A stretch of 29,484 nucleotides of DNA, from positions 1 through 29,484 of IMG/VR virus record IMGVR_UViG_3300033143_001136. The stretch is one strand, 5' to 3'. The notes under the pieces were generated by a model that made no database searches, had not been told where the DNA came from, and worked only from the letters and a program-made list of their open reading frames with translations. This document shows, piece after piece, positions 1-27,400 of the stretch. Numbering within the stretch: position 1 is the first letter of the stretch; every line of letters starts with the position of its first letter. The translations under genes and the position numbers were made by a program. The DNA comes from a virus.

Positions 1-1
1 A

Positions 2-193
2 AGTCAACTAGCTGGTGAAGATTCAGGAGCAACTACAGGTGGTGATGAAGCCGCAGCGGCTGAAGAAACTGGAGCCGCAGAAGCAATGCGTAATGAATTT
101 ATAGAAGGAGCTGGTGATATATCTGGTAACGCTATTGGCAAGAATAGAGGAACTTTGCCAACAGCTACGGATCTTGTAAACCCAGAAGGTTAA
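2..193 (+). CDS. C-terminal fragment of an unidentified phage protein
   Basis: An open frame enters from the left edge (first complete codon at base 2) and stops with TAA at 191-193, giving 63 residues. The visible part is rich in Ala, Glu and Gly (GATTGGDEAAAAEETGAAEA), then continues with a Gly/Asn-rich stretch and ends in LPTATDLVNPEG. No catalytic motif is visible. The Ala/Glu run looks like a flexible or helical tail rather than an enzyme core. It is followed by a 78-base gap and then the A-rich leader of the next gene. The product may be another virion protein, but that rests only on neighbourhood. Confidence 0.6.
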   Translation, partial: SQLAGEDSGATTGGDEAAAAEETGAAEAMRNEFIEGAGDISGNAIGKNRGTLPTATDLVNPEG

Positions 194-758: not shown

Positions 759-914
759 ATGAAGTCTAGGGGATTAGGCGACGATGTTGCTAAGTTTACA
801 AAAAGAACAGGAATTAAGTCCGTTGTAGATAGAATATCTAGCGGACTTAACGTCCCCTGTGGTTGTGATAAAAGACAAACAACATTAAATAAAATGTTTC
901 CTTATAAAAATTAA
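759..914 (+). CDS. 51-residue conserved CGC-motif phage peptide
   Basis: A short frame runs from ATG at 759 to TAA at 912-914, filling the space between its neighbours (7-base gap before, 1 base after). The product starts MKSRGLGDDVAKFTKRTGIK and carries a CGC pair (C34, C36) followed by DKRQTTLNKMFPYKN. This layout (GLGD, a TGIK segment, CGC, R, LN-x-MFPYK) matches a small family I recall from Bacteroidota and marine phages; its function is unknown. Two closely spaced Cys residues could bind metal in a dimer or form a disulfide, which is inference. The tight packing and family-like pattern make it a real gene despite its size. Confidence 0.7.
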   Translation: MKSRGLGDDVAKFTKRTGIKSVVDRISSGLNVPCGCDKRQTTLNKMFPYKN

Positions 915-915
915 T

Positions 916-1245
916 ATGGCGTTTAAAATGAATTCACCATTTCCTTTGTTTAGCACTCCTGTGTATGAAAGAGAATTACCAGAAGGTATCTTGGGGAAGG
1001 GTAATAAAAACGGTACAATATTAATTTCAGAAGACATAACTAAAGATCCAGAGCAAACTAAAAGTATAATTGATCATGAAGAAGTTCATATAGATCAAAT
1101 AAAAAGAGGTGATTTGGATTATGACGATAAAAACGTTTACTGGAAAGGAAAAACATATTCTCGTTCAACAATGAAAGAGGGTAATCCTAATTTACCATGG
1201 GAAAAAGAAGCATATAGTAAAACAGATAACTACGAAAAATATTAA
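916..1245 (+). CDS. Small HExxH protein, putative zinc metallopeptidase-like
   Basis: The 109-residue protein contains a zincin signature HEEVH at residues 54-58, preceded by a hydrophobic pair (SIIDHEEVHIDQ). A downstream LPWEKEAY segment (residues 93-100) offers Glu96 or Glu98 as a possible third zinc ligand. The first residues (MAFKMNSPFP) resemble the short Phe/Lys/Ser-Pro starts of small basic proteins in this phage group. No signal peptide or transmembrane segment is seen. It sits between the CGC peptide and the basic proteins. Possible roles are processing of a virion protein or cell-wall-related action; neither is shown. The motif is directly visible; peptidase activity is inferred from the motif alone. 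Confidence 0.6.
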   Translation: MAFKMNSPFPLFSTPVYERELPEGILGKGNKNGTILISEDITKDPEQTKSIIDHEEVHIDQIKRGDLDYDDKNVYWKGKTYSRSTMKEGNPNLPWEKEAYSKTDNYEKY

Positions 1246-1250
1246 AAAAA

Positions 1251-2096
1251 ATGGCATATAATCAAAAATTTGGACCAAACAGAAAAGGTTCAAAACACGG
1301 AAAAGACATGATCTCAAGAATCATGAGTGGACAAGACACCGCAATGTCTCCACTAAGTAATTCTGTTCAATACCTGAAAGGAATGTCAGGTGCCATGAAC
1401 GGACAAAAAGGTATGGATGGGTATTCATATGGGGTGCCTGCAGAAAAACTAAGTAGCATACAAGGTTCAGAAGGTATGTCTAGAAAAACTAAAGGTCAAG
1501 CTGCATTAGATAACATAGGTGGTGGAATGTCAAGACACACGTCTGAACATTCTACTGAAGAGTATATGGATAGAAAAGATGCTGCAATTAAAAAGTCTAA
1601 AGCTGATAAAGGCATTTCAAGACATAAAGCTGGGCATCAAGGATATAACGACAAGCTTGATGAGTCTTTAGCTAAAGACGGTAAAGAATCTACTAAGAAA
1701 CAATCTATGAAAGATCGTAGAGATGAGTCTAAAGGTATGAAAAAAGGTGAAGGAAAAAGAGCTTATTCATCTGATCCGGATATGGATATTAGCCAAGGAG
1801 CAAAACGAAAAAAACGTGTGGCTAGACCTCCTTCGCGCCCCAAAGCCAAAGCCAAAGGAAAAAGTAAGTTTCCACCAGGAATAAATCCAAACGCTAAAAA
1901 GAAGGACAAAGGACAAAAACAGTTTGAAGGTAAAACGGTTTCAAAAAAAAAATACGATAAAAGACAAGACAGAGCTAAGGAGTTAGACAAAAAATCTTTT
2001 GATAAAGATAAAAAAGGTGGTGACGGATCTAAACTTAGAACGCGAGCTGGTAGAGTTAGAACAAGAGCCGGTAGTGTTAACAACGTGAAAAAATAA
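1251..2096 (+). CDS. Lys/Arg-rich low-complexity protein, paralogue-like N-terminus
   Basis: The 281-residue, strongly basic protein begins MAYNQKFGPNR, almost the same as the next gene's start. It carries a Ser-Pro-Leu motif near residue 33 (AMSPLSNS). The short motif (M/I)SR(H/K) recurs around residues 76, 93 and 122. The second half is almost entirely charged, with a basic Pro-rich stretch (RVARPPSRPKAKAKGK) and a repeated RTRAG near the end. No enzyme motif or membrane segment is visible, and most of it is probably disordered. Such a protein could bind DNA or RNA or be packaged in the head. These roles are inferred from composition and location among virion genes only. Confidence 0.55.
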   Translation: MAYNQKFGPNRKGSKHGKDMISRIMSGQDTAMSPLSNSVQYLKGMSGAMNGQKGMDGYSYGVPAEKLSSIQGSEGMSRKTKGQAALDNIGGGMSRHTSEHSTEEYMDRKDAAIKKSKADKGISRHKAGHQGYNDKLDESLAKDGKESTKKQSMKDRRDESKGMKKGEGKRAYSSDPDMDISQGAKRKKRVARPPSRPKAKAKGKSKFPPGINPNAKKKDKGQKQFEGKTVSKKKYDKRQDRAKELDKKSFDKDKKGGDGSKLRTRAGRVRTRAGSVNNVKK

Positions 2097-2107
2097 ATAA
2101 TAAAATT

Positions 2108-2848
2108 ATGGCTTATAAACAAAACTTTGGCCCTTCTAGGATGTCGGGCTATAAAAAGACAGAGCAAGTTGCTAGTAAATCTTCTTTGTTTAGACTAGGT
2201 TCTTCGCCTTTAAATCATGACATGGATTTTGATCATGAACATGAAGAAGGTAAAGACAGATATACTAGGCAAGTACCTGTTAAACCAGGAACTAAAAGAC
2301 AAAAAGGTAGTAGCAGAAGAAAATTATCAAAAGAAATGGCTAATTTTGCTAACACTAGAGACGCTGACGGAGAAGCTGTAAACACTCAAGGTTATATGAG
2401 AGGTGGTAGTGGTAGTAAAGTTAAAGTAGGTGGAAAAAATTTACTTGAAGTAAAAACAGGTACGCGAGGAGGTGGAGGCGCTCAAGGTACCTCTTATACT
2501 GATAAAAAATATGATGATGTAAATTGGAGAGATATTAACAAGCAAATAAAAAAGACTGGTTCAGCTAGTGTGGTTGATGGTAAAGTATCTAGTGGAACTA
2601 CTCAAACTAAAACTGCTTATGGTTTTGTGTCGAGAGATAATAGAAAGAAAGAAGTTGCAGCTCAAAAAGCTAAAAGAGCAGAAGATCTTAAAAATAAAAA
2701 AGCTACTAGACAAAAGACTAAAGACGAGATGCAGCAAAAGCTGAAAACGAAGAGAGATGCAGCACAAGCTAAAAGAGATCAATCTGTTGCAGAACTTGTC
2801 AAAAGAAGAAAAGAACAAGCCGCTAATAGAAACAAAAATAAAAAATAA
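2108..2848 (+). CDS. Basic protein with MAYxQxFGPxR N-terminus and C-terminal coiled coil
   Basis: This 246-residue protein starts MAYKQNFGPSR, matching the upstream gene's first eleven residues at eight positions. It then has SSPLNHD (residues 32-38), comparable to SPL motifs in both neighbours. The middle is Gly/Ser/Lys-rich. Residues 178-246 are a continuous run of Lys, Arg, Glu, Ala and Gln, likely a long basic helix or coiled coil. The rest of the sequence diverges from its neighbour, so only the N-terminal tag seems shared. The start is preceded by AATAAAATT-ATG with no Shine-Dalgarno. Function unknown; a nucleic-acid-binding or head-internal role is a guess from charge. Confidence 0.55.
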   Translation: MAYKQNFGPSRMSGYKKTEQVASKSSLFRLGSSPLNHDMDFDHEHEEGKDRYTRQVPVKPGTKRQKGSSRRKLSKEMANFANTRDADGEAVNTQGYMRGGSGSKVKVGGKNLLEVKTGTRGGGGAQGTSYTDKKYDDVNWRDINKQIKKTGSASVVDGKVSSGTTQTKTAYGFVSRDNRKKEVAAQKAKRAEDLKNKKATRQKTKDEMQQKLKTKRDAAQAKRDQSVAELVKRRKEQAANRNKNKK

Positions 2849-2853
2849 ATATT

Positions 2854-3477
2854 ATGTTTAGAATGAGTATGGGATCTAAATCCCAAAAACAACACAGAAC
2901 TCCTTTTGGTGGTATTTCAAGAGTTATGAGTCCGCTTGACGCTGGTCCTTGTGGAACTCCAGGTAATCCTCCTTGTGATGTAGAAAGAGAAACTGGTAAG
3001 GAAACTTATAAGGGTACAAAAGACGGTGTGTCAGGAACATATACAAAAACAAGTTATCAAACTGACTTTGAGATTCCTGGAAAACCTGGTGGCAAAAAAC
3101 CTGGTAAGCCACCCAAGACTGGACCTAGAACACCTTTTAAAAATCCGAAAGTTCCTGGTCAAACTTATGAGGAATTTCAAGCAGCACCGTATGGATCTCC
3201 AGGAAAAACTGCTGAAAAATATAAGCCTAAAACCAAAACTTATGGTGAGAAAAAAAGATCAAATTTAACATTTGTTCCTGATAAAACTCCACCACCTAAG
3301 ACACCACCACCATCAACACCACCAAAACAAGAAAAGAAATTGCCTTCAATTAAGGTGTCAGGTAAAGGTAGAAAAAGTATAAAAATTGGAAAACCTGATT
3401 TATCTTCTGGACCTAGAACTAAAAGCGGTGGCAGTAAAAGAAGTGGTAACTCTTGTGGTTGTGCGGTAAACAATTAA
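2854..3477 (+). CDS. Pro/Lys-rich basic protein with SPLD motif and C-terminal CGC
   Basis: The 207-residue product has a Met/Ser-rich start, an RTPFGGISRVMSPLDAG segment (residues 15-31) and a second Cys pair in GPCGTPGNPPCD. Proline-rich tracts follow, including PPPKTPPPSTPPKQ near residue 145. The end is NSCGCAVNN, echoing the CGC motif of the 51-residue peptide upstream. It is highly basic, with no membrane helix or catalytic motif. It is the third in a row of basic, probably disordered proteins sharing an SPL element near the N-terminus. The leader AAATAAATATT-ATG matches that of the giant gene at 24408. Function unknown. Confidence 0.55.
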   Translation: MFRMSMGSKSQKQHRTPFGGISRVMSPLDAGPCGTPGNPPCDVERETGKETYKGTKDGVSGTYTKTSYQTDFEIPGKPGGKKPGKPPKTGPRTPFKNPKVPGQTYEEFQAAPYGSPGKTAEKYKPKTKTYGEKKRSNLTFVPDKTPPPKTPPPSTPPKQEKKLPSIKVSGKGRKSIKIGKPDLSSGPRTKSGGSKRSGNSCGCAVNN

Positions 3478-3484
3478 GTATATT

Positions 3485-3889
3485 ATGAAAAAAATTCTTG
3501 AACTAATAACAGGTAGCCTTATAAAAGATGTTGGTAAAGTTATAGACAACCTAACAACTTCTGACGAAGAGAGACTTTCTGCTAAACAGAAGCTTCAAGA
3601 GTTATTAGAACAAGCTGATAGAGATGCTCAAAGTCAAGTTACTGCTAGGTGGGAGTCAGACATGAAGTCTGATTCTAAGCTAGCTAAAAATATAAGACCT
3701 ATGGTTCTTGTATTTTTAACTGTCATCTTTGTTATATTAGCATTTTTTGATGGTAACATTGGTGAGTTTAGAATAGCAGAACAATACATACCGATATTTC
3801 AATCATTATTAATAACAGTTTATGGCGCTTATTTTGTAGGTCGAACCTGGGAAAAAGGTAAAAAAATAAGTAATAATAATAATAAGTAA
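3485..3889 (+). CDS. Holin (GTA_holin_3TM-like)
   Basis: The 134-residue protein has an amphipathic N-terminal segment, a charged helix, then two clear hydrophobic helices at about 72-89 (PMVLVFLTVIFVILAFFD) and 101-118, separated by a short loop, and an Asn/Lys tail. The arrangement LAKNIRPMVLVFLTV followed by LLITVYGAYFVGRTWEK is characteristic of the GTA_holin_3TM phage holin family as I know it. Holins form membrane lesions that let the lysin reach the cell wall and set lysis time. No recognisable endolysin lies beside it in this window; the HExxH protein at 916 is the only nearby hydrolase-like candidate. Confidence 0.8.
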   Translation: MKKILELITGSLIKDVGKVIDNLTTSDEERLSAKQKLQELLEQADRDAQSQVTARWESDMKSDSKLAKNIRPMVLVFLTVIFVILAFFDGNIGEFRIAEQYIPIFQSLLITVYGAYFVGRTWEKGKKISNNNNK

Positions 3890-4169: not shown

Positions 4170-4386
4170 TATTAGAAAAATTAGCATTGGTTCTGATTAT
4201 AAAAACGATGCTATGCATTATTCTGTAGGTCAGCAAGTCTATGGAGGTCACGAAATATCTCATATACTTTTTGAAGAATCTGACAACTCCTATAATATAC
4301 ATATAAAGAAAAACAACGAGGTATTGCCATGGAAAAAGTTTAATTCTAACATGGCAATATCAGTTGAATATGATTTAGAATATTAA
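4159..4386 (+). CDS. Conserved small phage protein of unknown function
   Basis: The 75-residue product (start MPSNIRKISIGSDYKNDAMH) has a central YSVGQQVYGGHEISHILFEE segment and a hydrophobic end (NMAISVEYDLEY). It looks like a small mixed alpha/beta domain with no catalytic signature. It overlaps the upstream gene by 11 bases and its stop TAA shares one base with the next ATG (TAATG at 4384-4388), so it sits in a tightly coupled run leading to the terminase genes. The pattern resembles a family I have seen next to terminases in marine phage contigs; its role there is not established. Confidence 0.65.
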   Translation: MPSNIRKISIGSDYKNDAMHYSVGQQVYGGHEISHILFEESDNSYNIHIKKNNEVLPWKKFNSNMAISVEYDLEY

Positions 4387-4991
4387 TGAGATCTGTATAT
4401 GATTTTATAGTAAAACCTTTAGGTAAAGAGTATTCTAACGATATAAAAATAGGTGGAATAAAACTTATATTAAACACTAAGATAGAAAGTTTTAAGTTTG
4501 TTAATAATTTAGCTGTTGTAGTTAAAACACCCATAGCTTACAATACACCAATTAAAACAGGTGATATTATAGTTATACACCACAATGTGTTTAGAACTTT
4601 TTACGATATAAGAGGTAATAAGAAAAAAAGTAGATCTTGGTTTAAAGAAGACTTATATTTCTGTTCTTTAGATCAAATATATTTATATAAAAACAAAGAT
4701 GATTTTAAGTCGATAAACAACAGATGTTTTATTAAGCCGTTAAAGTCAAAAAACAAGTTTAGTGTAAATAAAGAACAAAAGCTTATTGGTATATTAAAAA
4801 TAGGTAATAGTTCATTAGAAGCCGCGGGTGTGAGCGAGGGAGACATTGTAGGTTATACCCCTTATGGAGAGTATGATTTTATTATAAATGATGAAAGATT
4901 ATACTGTATGAAATCAAATGATATTGTAATTAAATATGGAAATAAAGAAAACCAAAAAGAATATAATCCAAGCTGGGCAAATAGCTGTTGA
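4386..4991 (+). CDS. Tandem GroES-like (Cpn10-fold) co-chaperonin candidate
   Basis: The 201-residue protein reads as two consecutive GroES-like units. Unit 1 (about 4-103) has FIVKPLGKE, a GG-hydrophobic element (IGGIKL, 22-27) where GroES has its mobile-loop GGIVL, TPIKTGDIIVIHH (53-66) like the GroES VGDKVLF strand, and YFCSLDQIYLYK like the closing DDILAV strand. Unit 2 (about 114-185) has CFIKPLK, AAGVSEGDIVGYTPYGEYDF and LYCMKSNDIVIKYG, the same order of strands, but no GG mobile-loop element. GroES-type proteins cap the chaperonin; T4 gp31 is a phage example needed for capsid folding. The assignment rests on motif order, not on a search. No chaperonin gene is in the window. Confidence 0.65.
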   Translation: MRSVYDFIVKPLGKEYSNDIKIGGIKLILNTKIESFKFVNNLAVVVKTPIAYNTPIKTGDIIVIHHNVFRTFYDIRGNKKKSRSWFKEDLYFCSLDQIYLYKNKDDFKSINNRCFIKPLKSKNKFSVNKEQKLIGILKIGNSSLEAAGVSEGDIVGYTPYGEYDFIINDERLYCMKSNDIVIKYGNKENQKEYNPSWANSC

Positions 4992-5208
4992 AGAGCTAAT
5001 AAAGGTTGCTAAAGAACCTATTGTAGACACTGCTGAAGATATATCTGCGGATAGATTAAAAAACGCAGCTGCAACAAAAAAACTAGCTATATTTGATGCT
5101 TTTGAAATTTTGCAAAAAATACAAGAAGAAGAGAATATTATAAATGAAAAACCAAAAGAAGTAAAAGAAAAAAGCTTTAAAGGTTTTGCAGAAAAAAGAT
5201 CTAAATAA
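4936..5208 (+). CDS. Probable terminase small subunit
   Basis: The 90-residue helical protein contains AGQIAVEELIKVAKEP and ISADRLKNAAATKKLAIFDA, then an acidic helix and a basic tail (EKSFKGFAEKRSK). The pattern SxDRLKNAAxxKKLAIFDAFEIL is one I associate with small genes directly upstream of large terminases in marine phages. Small terminases recognise the genome and load the large subunit. The gene overlaps the GroES-like gene by 56 bases and touches the large terminase by one base (TAATG at 5206-5210), indicating translational coupling. No clear helix-turn-helix can be singled out by eye, so the call leans on position and length. Confidence 0.6.
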   Translation: MEIKKTKKNIIQAGQIAVEELIKVAKEPIVDTAEDISADRLKNAAATKKLAIFDAFEILQKIQEEENIINEKPKEVKEKSFKGFAEKRSK

Positions 5209-7415
5209 TGTATAAGCAAACCTTATATAAAGTTTTAGAAAATTACATTGATTCTAATATATTAAAAAGAAACAATAGAAATAAAAAATGGGAGTATGGT
5301 TATAATGATAAGTACGATATTATTATAATTAGTAAAACAGGTGAAATAGGTGAGATATATGAAATACAAAATCTAAAAATAGCATTACCAAAAAAAGAAG
5401 ATGTAGTTAGATTTGAAAACAACACATGGCAGCGCTCTATTATACCTGACGAGTTAAAAAAAATAAAAACAAGATTTGATTGGGAAAAATATCCAGTTGA
5501 CTTTAAAGAACACTGGTATGACTACATTGATAAAGAATTTATTAGAAGAGAGCAAGGTTTTTGGTTTTATAACAAGAACACTCCTACTTATATTACTGGT
5601 ACTCACTATATGTACCTGCAGTGGTCCAAAATTGATGTTGGGAAACCAGACTTTAGGGAAGCAAATAGATTATTCTATATTTTCTGGGAAGCTTGCAAAG
5701 CAGACAACAGGTGTTATGGAATGTGCTATCTTAAAAACCGCCGAAGCGGATTTTCGTTTATGGCCTCAGGAGAGGTGGTTAATCTTGCAACTATTAATTC
5801 CGATTCACGATACGGCATATTGTCCAAATCTGGGCCCGATGCAAAGACAATGTTCACAGATAAAGTCGTACCAATATCGGTCAATTATCCGTTCTTTTTC
5901 AAACCGATACAGGATGGTATGGACCGTCCCAAGACCGAACTCGCATATAGAGTACCAGCATCAAAGTTCACCCGAAGAAAACTCGACACCAATGAGACCG
6001 CGGCCGATCTTGAGGGACTCGATACAACGATCGATTGGAAAAACACGGGTGACAACTCCTACGACGGGGAGAAACTCAAGCTCCTCGTCCACGATGAATC
6101 GGGCAAATGGGAAAGGCCGAACAACATCCTCAACAACTGGAGGGTTACGAAAACAACACTACGATTAGGTAGTAGAATTATTGGTAAATGCATGATGGGA
6201 TCAACTTCTAATTCATTAGATAAAGGAGGTGATAATTTTAAAAAATTATATTATGATTCAGATGTTACAAACAGAAACGCCAACGGACAGACTCGCTCGG
6301 GATTATATAGTTTGTTCATACCTATGGAATGGAACTACGAAGGATACATTGATTCTTATGGGATACCTGTATTCGACACTCCAAACAAACAAACGAAAGA
6401 CTCCCATGGTATACCTATAAAGTTAGGTGTAATAAATTATTGGCAGAATGAAGTTGATGGTTTAAAAACCGATCAAGACGCTTTAAATGAATTCTATAGA
6501 CAGTTCCCAAGAACTGAAGAACACGCTTTTAGAGATGAAGCTAAAGCTTCTTTATTTAATCTTACTAAGATATATGAGCAAATAGACTGGAACGGTGATT
6601 TAAGAAACAGTAACTTAGTTACACAAGGTAATTTTCATTGGGAAAATGGAATAAAAGATACAAAAGTAATATTTGTTCCTCATAACAAAGGAAGATTTTT
6701 TATTACTTGGACACCACCTGTTAACATACAAAATACTGTTTTAGTAAAAAGAGGATTAAAATATCCTGCTAACGAACATATAGGTGCTTTTGGATGTGAT
6801 AGTTATGACATATCAGGAACAGTGGACAAAAGAGGTTCCAAAGGTTCTTTACATGGATTAACAAAATTTAGTATGGAAAACGCGCCAGCGAATCATTTTT
6901 TCTTAGAATATATAGCTAGACCTCAAACGGCTGAGATATTTTTTGAAGATGTTTTAATGGCTTGTATTTTTTATAGCATGCCCATACTAGCAGAAAATAA
7001 TAAACCTAGATTATTATATCATTTTAAAAGAAGAGGATATAGAGGTTTTGCTATGAATAGACCAGATAAATTAAAGTTATCTGTGACAGAAAGAGAAATA
7101 GGTGGTATACCTAACTCATCAGAAGATATAAAACAAGCCCACGCTGCTGCTATAGAATCTTATATAGAAGATTTTGTTGGGATTAAAAGTAATGGAGAAT
7201 ATGGTCAAATGTATCTTCAAAGAACTTTAGAAGACTGGGCTAAGTTTAATATAAACAATAGAACAAGTCACGATGCTTCTATTAGTTCTGGTTTAGCCAT
7301 AATGGCTTGTAATAAAAATAAGTATAGACCTGTGGCTCAAATACAAAGAAAAGTATACGACATAGGAATAAAAAAATATAACAATAAAGGTACATTGTCA
7401 AAAATAATTGAATAA
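5208..7415 (+). CDS. terL: Terminase large subunit (packaging ATPase/nuclease)
   Basis: The 735-residue protein packages DNA into the prohead through the portal and cuts the concatemer. In the ATPase half, KNRRSGFS (176-183) occupies the Walker A position in a degenerate form lacking the usual GK[ST], LLVHDE (292-297) is the Walker B plus catalytic Glu, and MGSTSN (330-335) fits the coupling motif. In the nuclease half, GCDSYD (529-534) and SHDA (688-691) supply RNase H-like acidic residues, with IFFED near 578-581 as another. It is followed immediately by the portal gene (TAA then ATG, no gap). Residues about 178-319 are encoded by an abruptly GC-richer segment with different codon choice; the frame stays open across it. 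Confidence 0.92.
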   Translation: MYKQTLYKVLENYIDSNILKRNNRNKKWEYGYNDKYDIIIISKTGEIGEIYEIQNLKIALPKKEDVVRFENNTWQRSIIPDELKKIKTRFDWEKYPVDFKEHWYDYIDKEFIRREQGFWFYNKNTPTYITGTHYMYLQWSKIDVGKPDFREANRLFYIFWEACKADNRCYGMCYLKNRRSGFSFMASGEVVNLATINSDSRYGILSKSGPDAKTMFTDKVVPISVNYPFFFKPIQDGMDRPKTELAYRVPASKFTRRKLDTNETAADLEGLDTTIDWKNTGDNSYDGEKLKLLVHDESGKWERPNNILNNWRVTKTTLRLGSRIIGKCMMGSTSNSLDKGGDNFKKLYYDSDVTNRNANGQTRSGLYSLFIPMEWNYEGYIDSYGIPVFDTPNKQTKDSHGIPIKLGVINYWQNEVDGLKTDQDALNEFYRQFPRTEEHAFRDEAKASLFNLTKIYEQIDWNGDLRNSNLVTQGNFHWENGIKDTKVIFVPHNKGRFFITWTPPVNIQNTVLVKRGLKYPANEHIGAFGCDSYDISGTVDKRGSKGSLHGLTKFSMENAPANHFFLEYIARPQTAEIFFEDVLMACIFYSMPILAENNKPRLLYHFKRRGYRGFAMNRPDKLKLSVTEREIGGIPNSSEDIKQAHAAAIESYIEDFVGIKSNGEYGQMYLQRTLEDWAKFNINNRTSHDASISSGLAIMACNKNKYRPVAQIQRKVYDIGIKKYNNKGTLSKIIE
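5740..6165 (+). other. GC-rich mosaic segment inside terL ATPase core
   Basis: Hand counts of the five 60-base lines from 5821 to 6120 give 147 G/C in 300 (49 %). Line 5281-5340 gives 13/60 and line 7021-7080 gives 15/60. Arg is written CGC/CGA/CGT here (for example the two Arg of NRRSG are CGC CGA), while flanking Arg codons are nearly all AGA; Leu CTC, Pro CCG/CCC, Ser TCG/TCC and Gly GGG also appear. The edges lie near 5740 and 6165. The segment covers the Walker A-like to just past Walker B region and keeps the reading frame, so it encodes a working version of the same domain from another source. Confidence 0.75.
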
Positions 7416-9808: not shown

Positions 9809-9824
9809 ATTATATTATATTATG
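9809..9824 (+). repeat. 16-base AT leader, copy 1 (before scaffold-like gene)
   Basis: ATTATATTATATTATG runs into the start codon of the scaffold-like gene at 9822. The identical 16 bases precede the gene at 12628. No Shine-Dalgarno is present at either site, so the shared leader is the only initiation-related feature seen. Confidence 0.5.
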
Positions 9825-11048
9825 TCAGAAAAAAAAGAAGAAGCTGTAAAGCAAGAAGGTGATTTTAGTTTAAAATCTAAAAAAACTAAACCTAAACAGT
9901 TAGGTAAAAAAACAAATGAAATAACTAAAGTTGATTTAACTAAACCCGAAGCAACAGGAGAAATAGTTCCAGACGTTGTAAAGGTTGAAGTTCCTAAAGA
10001 AGCATTAAAACAAGAAGAAGATGCCATTCAAATCGGAGAAACAACGGAGGTGGCTGTGGGCGAACAAACCGGAGATAGCACTAAAGTGGACGAACAAGTA
10101 CAGCAGTCCAGCCAAGATGATAAAGATCAAGAAAGCCCACTCCAAGAAATAACAAAAGAAGAGGTAAAAGAAATAAAGCAGGAAATTAAAGAAGCTGTAA
10201 GAGACGAAAAAATTCTTGGAAAACCTTTACCAGAAAATATTGAAAAACTAGTTTCATTCATGGAAGAAACTGGTGGCTCTGTAGAAGATTACGTAACTTT
10301 AAATAAAGATTATGAAAAATTAGACAGTGCTCAATTACTCCATGAGTTTTACAAAAAAACTAAACCACATCTCGACTTAGATGAAATTAACTTTTTATTA
10401 GAAGATAATTTTAACTTTGACGAAGACGTGGACGAGGCAAGAGATATTCGAAAGAAAAAACTTGCTTACAAAGAAGAAGTTGCAAAAGCAAAACAATACT
10501 TAGAAAGCTCTAAGAAAAAATATTATGACGAGATCAAGTTGAGACCGGGCGTAACAAAAGAGCAGCAAGAGGCGTTAAGTTTTTACGACAAATATAAATT
10601 GCAACAAGAAACCGCAACTAGATTACATGGTGATTTTAGAGACAATACTAAAAAATTATTTAACTCAGATTTCAAAGGTTTTGATTTCAACGTGGGTGAT
10701 AAAAAATTTAGATATGGAGTAAAAGATCCTGTTAAGGTTGGTGAAACTCAAATAGATGTACAAAACTTTATTAGTAGATATTCTAATGATGAAGGACAAA
10801 TTGTAGATCCAGCTGGGTATCATAAGGCTATGTATGCTGCAATGAATGCTGATAAAATTGCTCATCATTTTTATGAACAAGGAAAAGCTGATGGTGTTAA
10901 AAACATTATCAACACTTCTAAAAATCCCTCTAAAGACGCCCCAAGGCAAGTTGCAGACGGAAATGTTTTTATAAATGGATTAAAAGTAAAATCGATTAGT
11001 GGATTAGACTCAACAAAATTAAAAATCAAAACAAAAAAGTTTAACTAA
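9822..11048 (+). CDS. Scaffold-like head assembly protein
   Basis: The 408-residue, highly charged protein lies between portal and major capsid genes, where scaffolding proteins are encoded. The first 130 residues are Lys/Glu/Gln/Val-rich and likely disordered (QEEDAIQIGETTEVAVGEQT and following acidic tract), then EITKEEVKEIKQEIKEAVRD starts a long helical part. The C-terminal half has a KRDL-like helical region and FKGFDFNVGDKKFRYGVKDP, perhaps a capsid-contacting domain. A scaffold directs capsid assembly and leaves or is degraded before packaging. No protease motif is visible here. Bases 10021-10140 are much GC-richer than the rest of the gene (58 of 120 by hand). Function is inferred from position and composition. 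Confidence 0.6.
   Translation: MSEKKEEAVKQEGDFSLKSKKTKPKQLGKKTNEITKVDLTKPEATGEIVPDVVKVEVPKEALKQEEDAIQIGETTEVAVGEQTGDSTKVDEQVQQSSQDDKDQESPLQEITKEEVKEIKQEIKEAVRDEKILGKPLPENIEKLVSFMEETGGSVEDYVTLNKDYEKLDSAQLLHEFYKKTKPHLDLDEINFLLEDNFNFDEDVDEARDIRKKKLAYKEEVAKAKQYLESSKKKYYDEIKLRPGVTKEQQEALSFYDKYKLQQETATRLHGDFRDNTKKLFNSDFKGFDFNVGDKKFRYGVKDPVKVGETQIDVQNFISRYSNDEGQIVDPAGYHKAMYAAMNADKIAHHFYEQGKADGVKNIINTSKNPSKDAPRQVADGNVFINGLKVKSISGLDSTKLKIKTKKFN
10021..10140 (+). other. GC-rich patch in scaffold-like gene
   Basis: The two lines 10021-10080 and 10081-10140 hold 31 and 27 G/C in 60. The patch encodes residues about 67-106, the acidic linker before the long helix. It uses GCC, GGC, GTG, ACC and AGC codons rarer nearby. 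It could be a recombination remnant, but the segment is short and the encoded stretch is low complexity. Confidence 0.4.
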
Positions 11049-11063
11049 TTAAAATTATTTATT

Positions 11064-12551
11064 ATGGCTATAAGTCCACAATTTGGTACAATAGTTCCTT
11101 CGCAGGCTCAACAAACTCTTGCGAGCAACTATTTAACTTTTGACGGTGCTGCTGGCGGAAACTTTGCACAACAATACTTACCTGAGCTTTATGAGCAAGA
11201 GGTAGAAAGATATGGTAACAGAACGTTATCAGGATTTTTACGTATGGTTGGAGCAGAAATGCCAATGACATCTGATCAAGTAATTTGGTCTGAACAAAAC
11301 AGACTACATATTTCATACGAAAACTGTGTAGTAGCAGGAGCAGCTGGTGCTGCCGCAACTATCACAATTCCTGTTACAGCTGCTAACGCTGCTGTGCCAA
11401 TCTTAAACGTTATATCTCCACTATCAACAATAGTTGTAATGGACGACTTTGGAAACGAAGTAAAATGTTTAGTAACATCATCTAACACTAACCCTGCAGG
11501 TGGTGCTGGTACTCCAGGACAATTAATTGTTGAGCCTTATCAAGGAGCTAACTTAGCTGCTAGTGGTATCGTTAACGGTAACCCGGTTAAGATCTTTGTA
11601 TACGGTTCTGACTTTCAAAAAGGAAGTAACACGTTAAACGCTCCTCAAGGAGTTAACGTTGGAGCTTCAGCAAATAACCCAATGGTTACTGTTGATCCTG
11701 CATTTACTACTTTTTCTAATTCTCCAATAATCTTAAGAAGCCAATACACGATCAATGGTTCTGACACTGCTCAGATCGGTTGGGTAGAAGTTGCTACTGA
11801 AGACGGAACTGGAGGTTATTTATGGTATCTAAAAGCTGAGTCTGAAACAAGACTACGTTTTGAAGATTACTTAGAAATGGCGATGGTTGAAGGTGAACTT
11901 AATGCAGGCGCTGCTGGTGTACCAGCTGCTAATCCTGGAACTGAAGGTTTATTCGCAGCTATTCAAAACGGTGGTAACGTTGAAGTAGGTTTCACTGCTG
12001 CTGCTGGTTTAGACGCTTTTGATGATATTCTTAAAAACCTTGACACTCAAGGAGCTATTGAAGAAAACATGTTATTCTTGAACAGATCTACTGCTCTTGA
12101 TTTTGACGATATGTTAGCTTCTATCTCTGGAGGTTTTGCAGGTGGTGTAGCTTTCGGTTTATTCGAAAACTCTGAAGAAATGGCATTAAACTTAGGATTC
12201 TCTGGATTCCGTAGAGGTTCTTATGATTTCTATAAAACAGATTGGAAATACTTAAACGATGCTTCAACGCGTGGTGCAATGACTGGTCCTGCTTCTATTG
12301 AAGGAGTATTAGTTCCTGCAGGTACTTCTACTGTTTATGACCAAATCTTAGGTACAAACATTAGACGTCCTTTCTTACATGTAAGATATAGAGCTTCTCA
12401 AGCAGATGACAGACGAATGAAATCATGGTTAACTGGTTCAGTTGGCGGTGCATTTACTTCTTCTTTAGATGCTATGGAGGTAAACTTCTTATCTGAAAGA
12501 TGTTTAGTAACACAAGCTAGAAACAACTTTGTATTATTCAAAGGTATCTAG
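11064..12551 (+). CDS. Major capsid protein
   Basis: The 495-residue protein (start MAISPQFGTIVPSQAQQTL) lies downstream of terminase, portal and scaffold-like genes. It combines an N-terminal helix with LPELYEQEVERYGNRTLSGF, several Gly/Ala/Val-rich beta regions, and a long central helix region around ETRLRFEDYLEMAMVEGELN. These fit the HK97-type major capsid fold as used by large podovirus-like phages. Codons are biased toward AAC, GAC, TTC and GGT/GGA, stronger than in neighbours, consistent with high expression. It ends in TAG, unlike most genes here (TAA), and a hairpin terminator follows 17 bases later. The call depends on context and length; no search was possible. Confidence 0.8.
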   Translation: MAISPQFGTIVPSQAQQTLASNYLTFDGAAGGNFAQQYLPELYEQEVERYGNRTLSGFLRMVGAEMPMTSDQVIWSEQNRLHISYENCVVAGAAGAAATITIPVTAANAAVPILNVISPLSTIVVMDDFGNEVKCLVTSSNTNPAGGAGTPGQLIVEPYQGANLAASGIVNGNPVKIFVYGSDFQKGSNTLNAPQGVNVGASANNPMVTVDPAFTTFSNSPIILRSQYTINGSDTAQIGWVEVATEDGTGGYLWYLKAESETRLRFEDYLEMAMVEGELNAGAAGVPAANPGTEGLFAAIQNGGNVEVGFTAAAGLDAFDDILKNLDTQGAIEENMLFLNRSTALDFDDMLASISGGFAGGVAFGLFENSEEMALNLGFSGFRRGSYDFYKTDWKYLNDASTRGAMTGPASIEGVLVPAGTSTVYDQILGTNIRRPFLHVRYRASQADDRRMKSWLTGSVGGAFTSSLDAMEVNFLSERCLVTQARNNFVLFKGI

Positions 12552-18900: not shown

Positions 18901-19750
18901 TTTAAGAAATGGTTATGATGCTAACGTGTGGTATGGCAGCGATGCGGGTAAAAGAAGTTTTACTTTTAACTTTGTAGTAACTGTAACGCCAGCTGGTCAA
19001 TCTCCAGCTAACACCTCATTTACAGTTACAAAAGATTTAATTAATTCAGCACCAAATATAGAAAGTGTTAATCCAGCTAGCCCTGTAGAGTTAACTTACG
19101 GCAATACATTCATAACTGATATTAGAGCTAATAATGGAGCTAATCAAAATAATGACAATAGAGGTAAAGATATTACTTGGAGTATTGTATCAGCTACAGG
19201 AGCCAACGGTTTTACTTACAATAATAAATTTGAAATTATAGGTAACTCTGGAAATCCAAGCGATTTATATAATATAGGTAGGTTACAAAGATCAACTGGC
19301 GGTGGTGGTACACAAGACAGTACGTTTATTGTTCAAGATTATACTATAGTTGTAAGAGCTTCTGATCCAGGTGCATCGACAGATCAAACCATACAGGTAA
19401 CTATGGGTAACATACCTACATATGTAAAAGAATACGAAGCGTATACAGGGTCAGGTAGTGATAGAGATGATATTATTTTTGTAATAATTAGAATACAAGA
19501 CAGTACCTCTGCTCAAAATGGTTATTATCTTTATGATAATCCATGGAGCACGTTAAATAATTCTAATCCTATCCAAATAGATTATACAAATGCATGTACT
19601 GGTAACTGTGCTAGTTATAATGGTGATTGGTTTTTTGCTTCTAGTGAAAGCGCTGTAATAAGTTTATATGAAGCTGCTCTAGGTCAAAGCCAAACTACAA
19701 CAGATATAACAACAATAAGCACATCAGCTTATCAGTTTATAATAGTATAA
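15935..19750 (+). CDS. Large tail protein (tail-tube-B/hub-like) with C-terminal Ig-like region
   Basis: The 1271-residue protein begins MAEVKNAFVGSKMNKDLEAR. Its first third contains repeated beta blades (NNFIYVFLTDYSG; NPIYGINILEDFLFFTDNRN), suggesting a beta-propeller like podovirus tail hub proteins. A conserved block around 455-480 (YPNHTLKQNRNYQVGFVLSD) and FPGDSLKVILN with YNAYLPGIMA are typical of this family in marine phages as I recall. Residues about 1038-1180 (from SAPNIESVNPASPVEL) read as an Ig/cadherin-like domain, and the last 90 residues with a CTGNC pair may be a host-contact tip. The stop overlaps the next ATG by one base. Receptor binding is inferred from size and domain order. 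Confidence 0.7.
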   Translation: MAEVKNAFVGSKMNKDLEARLVPSGEYRNAVNAQISRSEGADVGALENALGNSLKVDFSVKEGLAAGTLSVIGAHVDEINNFIYVFLTDYSGSTYSTSANNYIYRYNTISNIAVKLVQGAFLNFSTRNPIYGINILEDFLFFTDNRNQPRKINVLRAQEGFAGFFYDSEDKISVAKISPFQPIELYEEITAAIAADFKAPSTNQGIGEYQTTMFNVSDEFLPLSTNPTNPYYEENYSGDREFLDDKFIRFSYRFKFKDGEYSVLAPFTQIAFVPKQDGYFIYDDSIPSDIQDDMKDGYQTTIIKFMENKVDKIGAIIPMPLKSDGTPSQAGQIRTLFDIDEIEIIGKESSNLSLQLIDTIPASEITGNNTFIKYIYESTKPFKTLPSSEISRVFDKVPVKALAQEVSSNRIIYGNYQDKHTSPEGLDYNVTASNKSAFATYTGSDVVKNTTSIVEYPNHTLKQNRNYQVGFVLSDRYGRSSSVILSNTTQTVTIGGVTYGGSTLYHPYASYSATSGADNFPGDSLKVILNSSIGPSAPNASTNWPGLYNGDTTSSAYNPLGWYSYKIVVKQTQQEYYNAYLPGIMAAQPIIDNASPDAIQGSISNTVLVGDNINKIPRDLSEVGPQQRQFRSSVRLFPRVINTNTVPTNNASNQQYGVGLGNEQILPDIEGITVNTISNLRDLFDYNPADPPIPDNFPQFYLYDSNPLIAQLGVNSKLGQRASFSTPSGNASYTSITMKFGHPFYPNSTSCTTGTWSNAVNTYYVPSNTLVYVTDVQGVTFSTSFTSSNPYQANWAGGPTNVPVSGWDFSCVGTGDGANPPETPKKQYVNFDDDVDVPVGKQVVLTGSRSSAPPGIQQLAVVETEPTESVIDIYYETTSAGLISQINNVNDTDTGAASSVQDDQSNSFFVEANMTQGQQLFRFKAKDAAGQIIRTANTTPTGNNVVGFALTSVFTNESTPQDVTSYFANLSVSPPVDFEGNQDTGWYLTLRNGYDANVWYGSDAGKRSFTFNFVVTVTPAGQSPANTSFTVTKDLINSAPNIESVNPASPVELTYGNTFITDIRANNGANQNNDNRGKDITWSIVSATGANGFTYNNKFEIIGNSGNPSDLYNIGRLQRSTGGGGTQDSTFIVQDYTIVVRASDPGASTDQTIQVTMGNIPTYVKEYEAYTGSGSDRDDIIFVIIRIQDSTSAQNGYYLYDNPWSTLNNSNPIQIDYTNACTGNCASYNGDWFFASSESAVISLYEAALGQSQTTTDITTISTSAYQFIIV

Positions 19751-20139
19751 TGTATAATCAAATTGAAATAAAAAAACATATAGAAAATTTATTAAAACTC
19801 AACTGGGGTGATTATAAACTGTATTTAGTAGGAGGAGCTCTTCATAAAAAAGAAACAAAAGATATAGATATATGTATGATCGGTCCATATAATTCAAGTG
19901 TTATTTTTGAATTAATAGATAAAGGCACAAGGCTAGGGCCTTTTGATATTTTTTATATTAATGAAGATCAGCTTGGTGTTACAAAACCTTATACAGCTAA
20001 ATCATACGACAGAGGTTTTCCTAGAGCACAACAAAGAAAAGGAGAGTGGATTGATGGTTTGTTCTGGCAAACGTGGGACTTTCCTCAAATTTTAACCAAT
20101 AAACCACCTAAATTAATTTATAATAGTGTAATTATATAA
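19750..20139 (+). CDS. Minimal nucleotidyltransferase-like protein (pol-beta fold motif)
   Basis: The 129-residue protein shows the pol-beta superfamily nucleotidyltransferase pattern: hydrophobic-GG (LYLVGGA, 24-30), nine residues between the second Gly and Asp38, then DID (38-40) and a third acidic residue in PFDIFYI (Asp66). Catalytic Asp residues of the family are therefore all present. The length fits a single minimal domain without a C-terminal helical partner. It sits between two tail genes with TAATG coupling to the upstream one. Family members transfer nucleotides to RNA, proteins or small molecules. The substrate here is unknown. A structural role is possible, but conserved catalytic residues argue for activity. 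Confidence 0.6.
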   Translation: MYNQIEIKKHIENLLKLNWGDYKLYLVGGALHKKETKDIDICMIGPYNSSVIFELIDKGTRLGPFDIFYINEDQLGVTKPYTAKSYDRGFPRAQQRKGEWIDGLFWQTWDFPQILTNKPPKLIYNSVII

Positions 20140-21627: not shown

Positions 21628-22035
21628 ATGGATTTAAAAATAAGATTATTAAACGAAGAAGACTATAGTCTTTTGGAAAAATGGTGGAAAGCCTGGGGCT
21701 GGCCAGCAGTTAGTAAAGATATATTACCTGACAATGGCACTGGTGGCATTATGGTAGAACACGAAGGAAAACCTATGGCAGCTGGTTTTATATACTGGAG
21801 TAACTCTGGTTTATGCTGGTTTGATTGGGTTGTGTCAGATCCAAAAGGTAATAAAAGAGTAAGGCCTTTTGCTGTTAAGTTTTTAATAGAAGCTGCAGAG
21901 CAAATGGTTAAAGATGTAGGTAAAAAATGCATTATGTCAATAAGCAGAAGTAATAGCTTATTAAAGATACATAAAAAATTAGGTTGGCACGTAGATGAAA
22001 AGCCATCTTATGAAATGATAAAAAGAATAAATTAA
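21628..22035 (+). CDS. GNAT-like acetyltransferase-fold protein
   Basis: The 135-residue protein has the overall order of a GNAT domain: an N-terminal strand and helices (KIRLLNEEDYSLLEKWWKA), a central strand region (GGIMVEHEGKPMAAGFIYWS, CWFDWVVSDP), a long helix (VRPFAVKFLIEAAEQMVKDV) and a closing SNSLLKIHKKLGWHVDEKPS segment typical of GNAT C-termini. The usual acetyl-CoA loop Q/R-x-x-G-x-G/A is replaced by KGNKRVRP (73-80), so binding may be altered. It lies between a tail gene and the ejection genes. A known possibility is modification of a virion or host protein; the target is not inferable. Confidence 0.65.
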   Translation: MDLKIRLLNEEDYSLLEKWWKAWGWPAVSKDILPDNGTGGIMVEHEGKPMAAGFIYWSNSGLCWFDWVVSDPKGNKRVRPFAVKFLIEAAEQMVKDVGKKCIMSISRSNSLLKIHKKLGWHVDEKPSYEMIKRIN

Positions 22036-24407: not shown

Positions 24408-27400
24408 ATGGAAGAAAAATATATGGTAGATGGCGTTTTAAAAACGCTAGAAGAACTTAAAATAGAAGCAGAAAGCTTTGGCTTAGATATTGAAAGCTTC
24501 TTGGCTTCTGTAGGCGCTGAACCTTATCAAGAAGAAAGTCAAGAACTAGATTTTCAACAGGGTGTTGTAGACGATGTGGATGCAACTGTAACACCCGAAA
24601 CTCCGGATGCATCCGAGGAAGAAAAAAGTTCTATTTGGGATTACATATCTGGCGCTGGTACTGCGGTTGGGTTATTGAATCCAATGACGGTCTTACCGAC
24701 TCTTGCAGGTACAGGTATTAATTATTATAGAAAAATAAAAAATGAAATAGACGTAAGTAAAAAGCAAGGCACTTCTGGTAAAGAAAAAGAAGAATATATA
24801 GAATTAGCAGAAACCTTTGAATCAATGGATCCAATGGATTTAACTGGAAATCAAGTTGATCAATTAAGAGCTTTTGCAAGAGAAGAATTATTAGAACAAA
24901 TACCTGAAGGGTATTCTACTGAAATAGCTGATTTAACTATAGATAAAAAAGCTATGGAATTGTTTAAAAGAATAAGCCCATATGGTGATTATGAAAAACA
25001 ATACTTAGCTGGATTAGATGCTGAAGGAGGTTTTTTTGATTTTATAGGCGACGTTGTAACATACATAAGAGGTGGTTTAAAAACTGGTAGTACCGTTGAT
25101 CCTCTAATAGAACTAACACAACAAGAAGAAGATGGTAGTTATGTAAATGCAGAAGAAATAGAAAAATTTTTAGAAGCCAATCAAGCGCAACAAGAAGTAG
25201 GTACTACTAATGAAATGCGTAAATTTGAAACTATTAAAAATAGAGCCTTAGAACTAGGCGCGTCTGAATCTGCTGCTTTTTTTGAAGGGATAATGGATAA
25301 CCCAAGTGTTATACTAGGTATAATAGCTCAAAGTTTTGCTACTCAAGTAAGCTCTCTTCAAAGTGATGAAGTTGCAGGAGGAGCAGCATTAGCAGCTGGT
25401 GGTGGTGCGGCTACGGGAGCAGCGCTTGGAACACTTGGTGGTCCACTAGCACCTGTAACTTCTACGGTAGGAGCTGTAAGTGGAGCAACAGTAGCTGGCT
25501 TAACAGCTCAATCAGCAATAATGGTAGGTGGTTTAACCTTTGGTGAGCTAATGCAAGAACACATGTTAGAAAACCCCGACGGGGGTTGGAAAGATGGACC
25601 TGTTTTTAATACAGAAAATTTAAATAAAATTTTATCTGACAGTAAACTAGTAGAAAGTTTGAAAGCTAGAGCTATTAAGAAGGGTATTACAGTAGGTGTA
25701 TTTGAAGGAATGATTGGGGCTGTAACCGGTGGAATCGGAGGTAAAATTGCTGGATCAGGATTAAGAGTTGGTGGGAGACTAATTAAATCAGCTCCGCTAG
25801 GAACTACAGTAGCTGGTGTAGGTGAAAGCTTAACTGGTATGGGTGGTGAGTATTTTGGTAGAAAAGCAGCTGATCAAAAAAATGATTTTAGCGAGGTTTT
25901 ACTAGAAGGTGTTGGTGGTAAAGACGTTGTAACTGGTCCGCTATCTTTCGCGGCAGAAATAGGTAATATAAATAATTTAAGTACGCGTATAGGTATTAAT
26001 AATGAACTAGCAATTGGTAAATATAAAAACGTAGCAGATGCGTTTAGAACAAAAGCACCAAGTGGTATTCAGTTTGAAACTCAAGTTAATATTGCTAGTA
26101 AAAAAGGTTCACAAAAAATAGTTGATCAAAAAGTAGACAAACTTGTTAAACAAAGTAGAATAACTATTAAGCAAGGAGAAAATATTAAAACAAATTTTAG
26201 AAATATTCAAGGCGCTACCAACGTGGCTGATAATCTAAATATAACAGGAGCTTTAAAACAAGAAACAGTAAATCTTATAAGTGAAAGATTAAGACTAGAA
26301 GCACGTATATCTAAAGCTGGAAAAAATAAAGCATTAGTATCTTCTGCTGTAGATAGAGTAAAAGAAATAGACAATAGGTTGTCTCAAATAAGCGCTGAAA
26401 ATAATCTAAATATTTCTGTAGAAACTGTAACTAATTTAGCTGAAAATGTAAAAGGATTAGATGTTATAACTGTAAACAACAAGCAAGAAGCAGAAGAATT
26501 ATCTAATGATCCTAAATTTAAAGATGTTGAAAAAAAATCTTTTGGAGAGCAAGGGTTTATATTGCAAAACAAAGAAACAGGTGAGCAAACTATAGTTATA
26601 AACAAATATCAATCAAACAAAGATCTAGCTGTTGATGTAGCTAACCATGAATTTTTACATGCTTTATTATTTAGAACATTAAAAAATAGTAAAGGCACGG
26701 CAATAAATTTAGGTAAAGAATTAAAAAAAGAATTATTTAAAATTGAAGGTATAGAAAATACCGAGTTTGCAGCTAGATTAGAACAATACAAAGCTGATCC
26801 TGAAGCTGTAAAAATGGAAGAAGTTTTAACTTTATTTTCTGGCGCCATACAGACAGGTGATATAAAATTCAATGAAAGTTTTTTTACTAAAGTAGGAGAT
26901 GTAATAAGAAGATTTTTACAAAATGCTGGATTAAAAAATGTTAAGTTTAACAAAGCTGAAGATGTTTATAATTTTATTAAAGACTACAACACAAGTCTAG
27001 AAAAGGGTAAACTAACAAAAGCACAAGAAAAATTATTTACTGAACGAGCTAAAGGTGATTTAGTTAAAAGAGAATATAAAACAAAAGATGATTCAACAGT
27101 TAAAGAATCTAAATCTTTTTACGACAGCTTATCACCTGAAGAGTTGGTTCAGATAAAAAAATCTCCATCAAGTCAGCCATCTCAAATAGCACAAGCTGAT
27201 CAGGCTTTATTAGATCAGTTTGATTTACTGGCTTTAAACGCTTTGAAGTATGATACTCGTAAAGGTGATTTTAGAAGAGAAGACGTATTGTCTGCTGCTA
27301 GAGAATTTTTACCAGGTATAGTAGAAAGATTTGATCCTAACACAGCTAAGTTTTCTACATTTGTAGACAACAACATAAGGCCAAAACAACAACAGATATA

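Follow-up and report, generated by a model that had tools for sequence, protein, structure and literature searches.

Why should neighbouring phage genes begin with nearly the same eleven residues when the rest of their products is unrelated? The question is raised by IMG/VR virus record IMGVR_UViG_3300033143_001136, whose 29,484 bases are here called the window. Between a small metallopeptidase-like gene (916; genes are named after their first position) and a holin-like gene (3485), it carries three genes for basic proteins. Two of them, 1251 and 2108, share an N-terminal tag, and all three, 2854 included, share a second element containing SPL. We found that the tag is a modular add-on, which genomes carry on several proteins each and which persists although the bodies behind it differ, and that it is under purifying selection at the protein level. 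The further step, from a modular tag to the virion, is one that we infer: with somewhat more confidence than doubt, we suggest that the shared N-terminus is a loading tag for virion cargo. The features concerned are the following.

1..193, plus strand: 3' end of a tagged gene (MAYKQKGYYGQ...) that starts outside the window, identified by the overlap with contig L132
1251..2096, plus strand: tagged basic protein of 281 amino acids (aa), made of tag, SR/SPL element and basic body
1251..1283, plus strand: N-terminal tag MAYNQKFGPNR, identical to the 2108 tag at 8 of 11 residues, with synonymous divergence
1311..1358, plus strand: second element ISRIMSGQDTAMSPLS, residues 21-36 of gene 1251
1476..1625, plus strand: three more internal SR copies in gene 1251 (MSRK at 76, MSRH at 93, ISRH at 122)
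2108..2848, plus strand: tagged basic protein of 246 aa
2108..2140, plus strand: N-terminal tag MAYKQNFGPSR
2204..2215, plus strand: SPLN element, residues 33-36 of gene 2108
2854..3477, plus strand: basic protein of 207 aa with the second element but no MAYxQ; relatives on 8 viral loci
2914..2940, plus strand: second element ISRVMSPLD, residues 21-29 of gene 2854

The preliminary description of this locus had noticed that MAYNQKFGPNR and MAYKQNFGPSR open adjacent genes with unrelated bodies, and that all three proteins have SPL near the start and a high lysine and arginine content. These observations hold. An identity of at least 8/11 is reached by 9 of 19,110 control pairs of N-termini, taken from called open reading frames (ORFs) of six named related isolates and possibly including orthologues. 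From residue 41 on, the bodies of the three proteins show no significant mutual similarity (best E 0.75), which rules out that the tagged window genes are paralogues, and none of the three has a family match at E <0.05 in Pfam, PHROGs, NCBIfam or PADLOC. SPL starts at residue 33 in 1251 and 2108 and at residue 26 in 2854, and 0 of 20,000 joint shuffles placed it within the first 40 residues of all three. Lysine plus arginine make up 0.26, 0.24 and 0.20 of the 1251, 2108 and 2854 proteins, with net charges of +39, +31 and +26. The supposed sharing of tag or SPL element stands in full for 1251 and 2108, which have both, but only in its second half for 2854, which has the SPL element and no MAYxQ.

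Gene 1251 has four [MILV]SR-type sites altogether; its ISRIM recurs in same-slot genes of relatives, and the genes in its slot are tagged in 14 of the 14 window-clade loci counted. The ISRVMSPLD of gene 2854 has a counterpart, VSRIMSPLD, in L132:4023, a gene lying just beyond the edge of the window. Contig L132 (IMGVR_3300033155_001329) matches the left end of the window at 6,428 of 6,433 bases and extends 5 kb further upstream, where two more tagged genes are found. One lies entirely outside the window (236 aa, beginning MAYKQNFGPSR; MAYKQNFGPSRKSGKAMSMCGVSRIMSPLD...), while the last 193 bases of the other (179 aa, beginning MAYKQKGYYGQ; MAYKQKGYYGQYSGNAKHSR...) are window positions 1-193. 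At least five neighbouring genes are therefore involved.

The recurrence check suggested with the preliminary description found MAYxQxFGPxR-type starts across related genomes. Relatives have the tag as FGPSR, FGLSR/WGISR or NNPLSRK, and in most cases SPL[NDK] comes after it at a variable distance; SP[LIMF] is present by residue 70 in 96 of 113 strict tags and absent there in 17. Within loci fetched by terminase only, MxYxQ starts occur in 19 of 443 non-redundant ORFs against 7 of 1,695 internal methionines, and the 20 occurrences of SPL[NDK] within the first 60 residues compare with an average of 1.0 after shuffling (maximum 5, 200 shuffles). A longer [MILV]SR form has 32 matches in 66 tagged proteins (2.00 per thousand aa) and 17 in 239 others (0.38), with a shuffle mean of 2.3 (maximum 7, 200 shuffles) and 0 matches for the reversed form. 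Two exact DNA patterns covering the tag alone retrieved 19 and 25 stretches from the viral collection, two contigs contributing two stretches each to the 19. All 44 hold at least one gene of the window clade, which for some is solely 759 or 916; as far as both patterns see, the tag is confined to one clade. The second pattern (MxYxQxNNPLxRK) left SPL unspecified, and SP[LIF] nevertheless lies within 30 residues in every one of the distinct ORFs retrieved (26 of 26), which shows that tag and SPL element go together. Contigs of prokaryote genomes were free of exact matches to one tag pattern, and when a named phage with the tag was sought, a 20-aa tag query, which is short and of low power, matched none of 50,697 records. 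In L001:1657 (residue 36) and L010:5303, a tag of the form MGYNQSF is internal, behind another N-terminus common to both.

The bodies behind the tag are diverse. The 96 strict tags, from 46 contig groups and often several per contig, fall into 37 body clusters with 17 singletons (E<1e-8, half coverage, 96 proteins), and 7 of the 37 clusters consist of proteins below 100 aa alone. This count depends on the cut-off, being 23 at E<1e-3 with single linkage and 113 proteins. Without the pattern-fetched loci there are 65 strict tags, 31 contig groups and 27 body clusters. Immediately 3' of gene 916 lies a slot for which we counted 103 distinct occupants, grouped into 31 clusters. A single cluster resembling the holin-like protein of the window accounts for 41 of them, with no accessory gene intervening; another 38, from 12 clusters, are MxYxQ-tagged, 2 start with an SPL-type element, and the 22 others, some of them accessory genes, are untagged by the MxYxQ test. 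When pattern-fetched loci are left aside, 88 occupants remain, with 39 holin-like, 26 tagged in 10 clusters and 2 of SPL type.

Some bodies occur with and without the tag. A DUF6321 body is tagged in L069 (MAYIQPDSPFLR) and untagged in the Pelagibacter phages HTVC028P, Skadi-4 and HTVC027P, where the protein starts at the body; L069 aligns to its DUF6321 relatives from residue 10, and HTVC028P gp22 begins at about residue 11. Likewise, a phrog_20603 body is tagged in L150 (MAFKQNNNPLSRKSSPLN), which aligns from residue 20 to the untagged gp111 of Thermus phage P23-45, again starting at the body. Related domains stand behind several tag variants in the alignment, with S27-P28 invariant. In L132 and L135, the fourth gene ahead of 916 opens with the same tag, and the two proteins are related at their C-terminal ends (33% identity over 111 columns, E 5e-13), but the L135 gene is without the SPLD-domain-SPLN cassette. 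An AlphaFold model of the tag with the phrog_20603 domain has three helices and a mean predicted local distance difference test (pLDDT) score of 52.8, below 50 for residues 1-31, and is too weak for a claim about the fold. When 20 proteins of relatives, either tagged or encoded next to tagged ones, were scanned against Pfam, DUF6321 (PF19846) alone exceeded its gathering cut-off of 28.5 bits, in 3 proteins (L069:2599, 41.5; L013:1592, 35.1; L022:4406, 44.9 bits); the window proteins have no DUF6321 match. For the same 20 proteins PHROGs returned unknown-function families plus a single holin match, a weak one (E 0.05). The sole PADLOC match among tagged and neighbouring proteins of relatives is weak as well (L113, E 0.002, 15.6 bits).

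Net charge per residue ranges from -0.048 to +0.142 in 66 non-redundant tagged proteins. Compared with the other proteins of their loci, tagged bodies are the more basic group (median +0.017 against -0.026, p=7e-8). As the range reaches acidic bodies, what unites these proteins is the tag, and DNA binding is an unlikely shared function. The earlier idea that the bodies bind DNA suits the strongly basic bodies of the window but not the acidic tagged bodies.

The ratio of nonsynonymous to synonymous polymorphism (pN/pS) was obtained for genes picked by position in 14 of 21 window-clade loci, several of them near-identical (7-12 distinct proteins per slot). The remaining loci are L097 and L147-L149, missed by the expression for 916, and L137, L142 and L143, where upstream sequence is lacking. 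Relative to 916, slots -4, -3 and +1 are tagged in 14/14 loci each and slots -2 and -1 in 0/14. The ratios for residues 1-11 and for residue 41 to the end are 0.02 and 0.66 in slot -4, 0.16 and 0.51 in slot -3, and 0.31 and 0.60 in slot +1. Synonymous sites still vary in the slot -4 tag (pS 0.34, pN 0.008). In the window, 4 of the 7 identical tag residues with degenerate codons differ synonymously between 1251 and 2108 (GCA/GCT, GGA/GGC, CCA/CCT, AGA/AGG), so the tag is no recent DNA copy; since the bases upstream of the ATG differ as well, a recent duplication of gene starts is ruled out.

What, then, would the tag do? We propose that a short linear element, M[AGSP][YF]xQ-x-(FGP/NNPL/WGI)-SR...SPL[ND], may be recognised by one and the same partner, which would be produced while virions assemble and most likely belongs to the head or scaffold. 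Otherwise unrelated small proteins would thereby be packed into the virion or head interior and presumably delivered along with the DNA. Our guess is that the zincin-like 916, with its tag-like start, could be cargo itself or could trim cargo or tag during maturation. We prefer virion loading because the tag shares the anatomy of the T4 internal proteins, though its sequence differs. We also count in favour phi38:1 gp080, an ORF of 34% lysine plus arginine upstream of the terminase, which its record calls a 'structural protein' by similarity. The sorting or docking signal of the preliminary description is thus borne out as regards modularity, purifying selection, recurrence and unrelated bodies, while its head-interior destination goes beyond these results.

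Several points weigh against virion loading. Acidic tagged bodies exist, which delivered cargo allows and DNA condensation does not. Among the 87 records having this terminase, six named relatives were examined upstream of that gene and have no canonical tag, so the tag is not required for every virion of this kind; the stretches examined in these six isolates gave MxYxQ starts in 1 of 196 ORFs and SPL[NDK] in 0. From the internal copies it follows that an N-terminal position is not strictly required. Mean tag identity is 0.60 between different bodies in one genome, 0.72 for the same body across genomes and 0.49 for unrelated pairs; being lower within than across genomes, it speaks for weak within-genome homogenisation at best. 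The untagged control slot -2 has a lower pN/pS at its N-terminus too (0.40 against 0.62), which means that the tag explains N-terminal conservation only in part. Finally, we saw no virion proteomics for this clade and found no receptor for the tag.

The neighbouring genes bear on the alternatives.

759..914, plus strand: 51-aa protein without tag, just 5' of 916; untagged in 14/14 window-clade loci
916..1245, plus strand: predicted HExxH zincin-like metallopeptidase with tag-like start MAFKMNSPF, marking the swap slot
3485..3889, plus strand: holin-like protein, 3' border of the accessory block (phrog_3427, E=1e-28; Pfam GTA_holin_3TM, E=2e-7)
5208..7415, plus strand: terminase large subunit, clade marker (phrog_6681, E=1.8e-163)

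The alternative that survives best, although we consider it unlikely, is that the tag and SR..SPL are processing sites: tagged proteins would be precursors that 916 cleaves, either to release the body or to split several domains apart, and the tag would mainly serve to mark the substrate. Relatives of 916 are encoded in 423 viral stretches, and the gene is present in 25 of the 29 terminase loci having at least 4.5 kb upstream. Its product has the HExxH of zincins with a downstream acidic residue as candidate third ligand; H54, E55, H58, W95 and E96 are invariant in 45 aligned sequences, and this retention of HExxH and the later WE counts for processing. The window protein has no Pfam or NCBIfam match, and 27 of the 45 relatives match DUF6782 (best E 4.5e-4). 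The structure model (pLDDT 75.6) is closest to IrrE (Z 5.9), abylysin (5.8) and the DPC repair protease 6mdx (5.6), and Foldseek against the PDB gave a best E of 0.13. With Z below 6 and E of 0.13 or worse, the general zincin arrangement alone is supported, and the likeness to minigluzincin, IrrE and Spartan-type zincins, which have HExxH and a similar size (about 105-110 aa), is limited to it. Foldseek also matched one viral predicted structure, an uncharacterised 301-aa protein (E 1.7e-11, 45% identity).

Tags go with 916, being found in 20/29 terminase-derived loci with the gene and in 3/17 without it (p=0.0018), all three non-canonical; over all loci, including those fetched by 916 itself, the figures are 46/56 and 5/19. 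Two of these five loci counted as lacking 916 (L170, L197) had been retrieved through a match to 916, but the ATG-only ORF caller gave no ORF there. This association, which processing would explain, may however be shared ancestry, and 9 of the 29 loci with 916 have no recognised tag. SPL elements stand on both sides of the phrog_20603 domain in L132:4023, and the whole SPL-flanked cassette is absent from the slot-equivalent L135:4374, which also counts for processing; on the other side, there is no fixed scissile motif and the SR-to-SPL spacing varies. Moreover, 916 itself has a tag-like start, and the gene is better conserved than the tagged ones. In its start F3 is invariant and P8 nearly so, and the SPF noted earlier near the start of 916 is indeed there, but this start fails the MxYxQ test in 14/14 loci. 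The 51-aa protein that adjoins 916 in window-clade loci and many relatives has a CGCxKR-like stretch and its best match in phrog_32048 (unknown function, E 1.6e-5).

The terminase and portal of the window match PHROG families; a scaffold-like (9822-11048) and a capsid-like protein (11064-12551) are encoded as well. By terminase, the closest named relatives are Manatee Spring phage ctfjg026 (62% identity) and Flavobacterium elemo phages (43%), followed by Maribacter phage Panino (40%) and Cellulophaga and Tenacibaculum phages (31-38%). The terminase-relative loci in metagenome-assembled genomes number 28: 16 are labelled Bacteroidota and 12 archaea or other bacteria. We take the latter to be mis-binned phage contigs, which leaves a Bacteroidota host as a candidate; L218, L221, L232, L242 and L245, in genomes labelled archaea, Pelagibacter and others, are probably flavophage contigs of this kind. 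The tagged block has a late or virion setting, which we likewise count in favour of virion loading: it is flanked by GroEL/ES-like genes and, at its opposite end, by the holin-like gene, followed by terminase and portal and the genes for virion structure.

Another alternative, which seems to us improbable, is that the tag docks proteins elsewhere during infection, for instance to a phage chaperonin next door or a host target, the proteins being intracellular factors. The diversity of the bodies would agree with it, and so would a GroEL-like (524 aa) and a GroES-like gene (L132:995-2813), which were assigned by eye, have counterparts so annotated in relatives and precede the tagged block by a few genes. 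Yet relatives with GroEL/ES annotations, an elemo phage and the Manatee Spring phage, are without canonical tags in the stretches seen, and the tagged genes belong to a block leading into terminase, portal and structural genes. Window positions 4386-4991 correspond to the place where an elemo phage has a GroES-annotated gene. It is very improbable that the common N-terminus has no role at the protein level and acts in translation or in the mRNA, or is left over from gene-start recombination: AT-rich leaders precede the genes and most tag copies are at gene starts, but the position-based pN/pS disfavours a translation leader (synonymous sites of the tag vary and residues do not), internal copies exist, the SPL part reaches as far as residue 33 and the bases upstream of the ATG differ.

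Other features of these loci can be mentioned. A small protein with a VGESxxWDGPL core (L028:1854, L132:3264, L150:2614) starts with MKKSPL[NK] in some relatives, a start missing in the window's own lineage. Inserted among the structural genes of the window are a nucleotidyltransferase-like gene (19750-20139; phrog_1614, E 2e-4) and a small GNAT-like ORF (21628-22035, by eye). A very long ORF (24408-29484, at least 1,692 aa) continues past the right end.

If virion loading is right, the tag would be a sequence handle listing the delivered proteins of a mostly uncultured marine phage group, and the swap slot a place to find such cargo by position. Most tagged bodies scanned have no known relatives, and they would be candidates for anti-defence or takeover functions, as the T4 internal proteins turned out to have. 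A more elaborate picture, which we offer as speculation with a low chance of being right in all its parts, is that in a clade of marine Bacteroidota phages the SR..SPL motif packs interchangeable effectors from a swap slot beside a co-packaged zincin, with internal SR..SPL repeats separating cargo domains that the zincin may cut.

How does such a tag compare with known systems? A literature search, covering titles and abstract starts with most subscription journals outside its coverage, returned no description of this tag and none of DUF6321 in connection with phage. The crassvirus phi-crAss001, also a phage of Bacteroidota, stores virion cargo (gp45, gp46 and others) in head and tail, according to the accessible part of PMC10172136; it belongs to a different phage group, its cargo proteins are large (up to 277 kDa), and that part mentions no common tag. 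Encapsulin targeting peptides are, in the excerpts available, short cargo motifs that load proteins into a shell of the viral HK97 fold, but encapsulins are described there as cellular compartments with nearly always one cargo, unlike the tag set reported here. For DarB of phage P1, the available portion of PMC9024508 states that the first 30 residues suffice to direct a reporter into the capsid; DarB is one 250-kDa protein, whereas here many small proteins have a common motif and packaging is proposed from their sequences. The T4 internal proteins are closest. The part of PMC3012670 at hand describes them as a highly diverse set in which the capsid targeting sequence (CTS) alone is conserved, loaded into the precursor scaffolding core. 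In T4, ipII and ipIII are adjacent, rich in lysine and arginine, and have a common N-terminus of 11 residues (MKTYQEFIAEA) on different bodies. Both fail the MxYxQ, SPL and SR tests, which are motif tests rather than a profile comparison, and the system described here differs further in having two elements, internal repeats and many bodies, its tagged proteins being known from their genes. What the two have in common is the feature that defines the T4 CTS, a short N-terminal peptide common to otherwise unrelated proteins of one phage.

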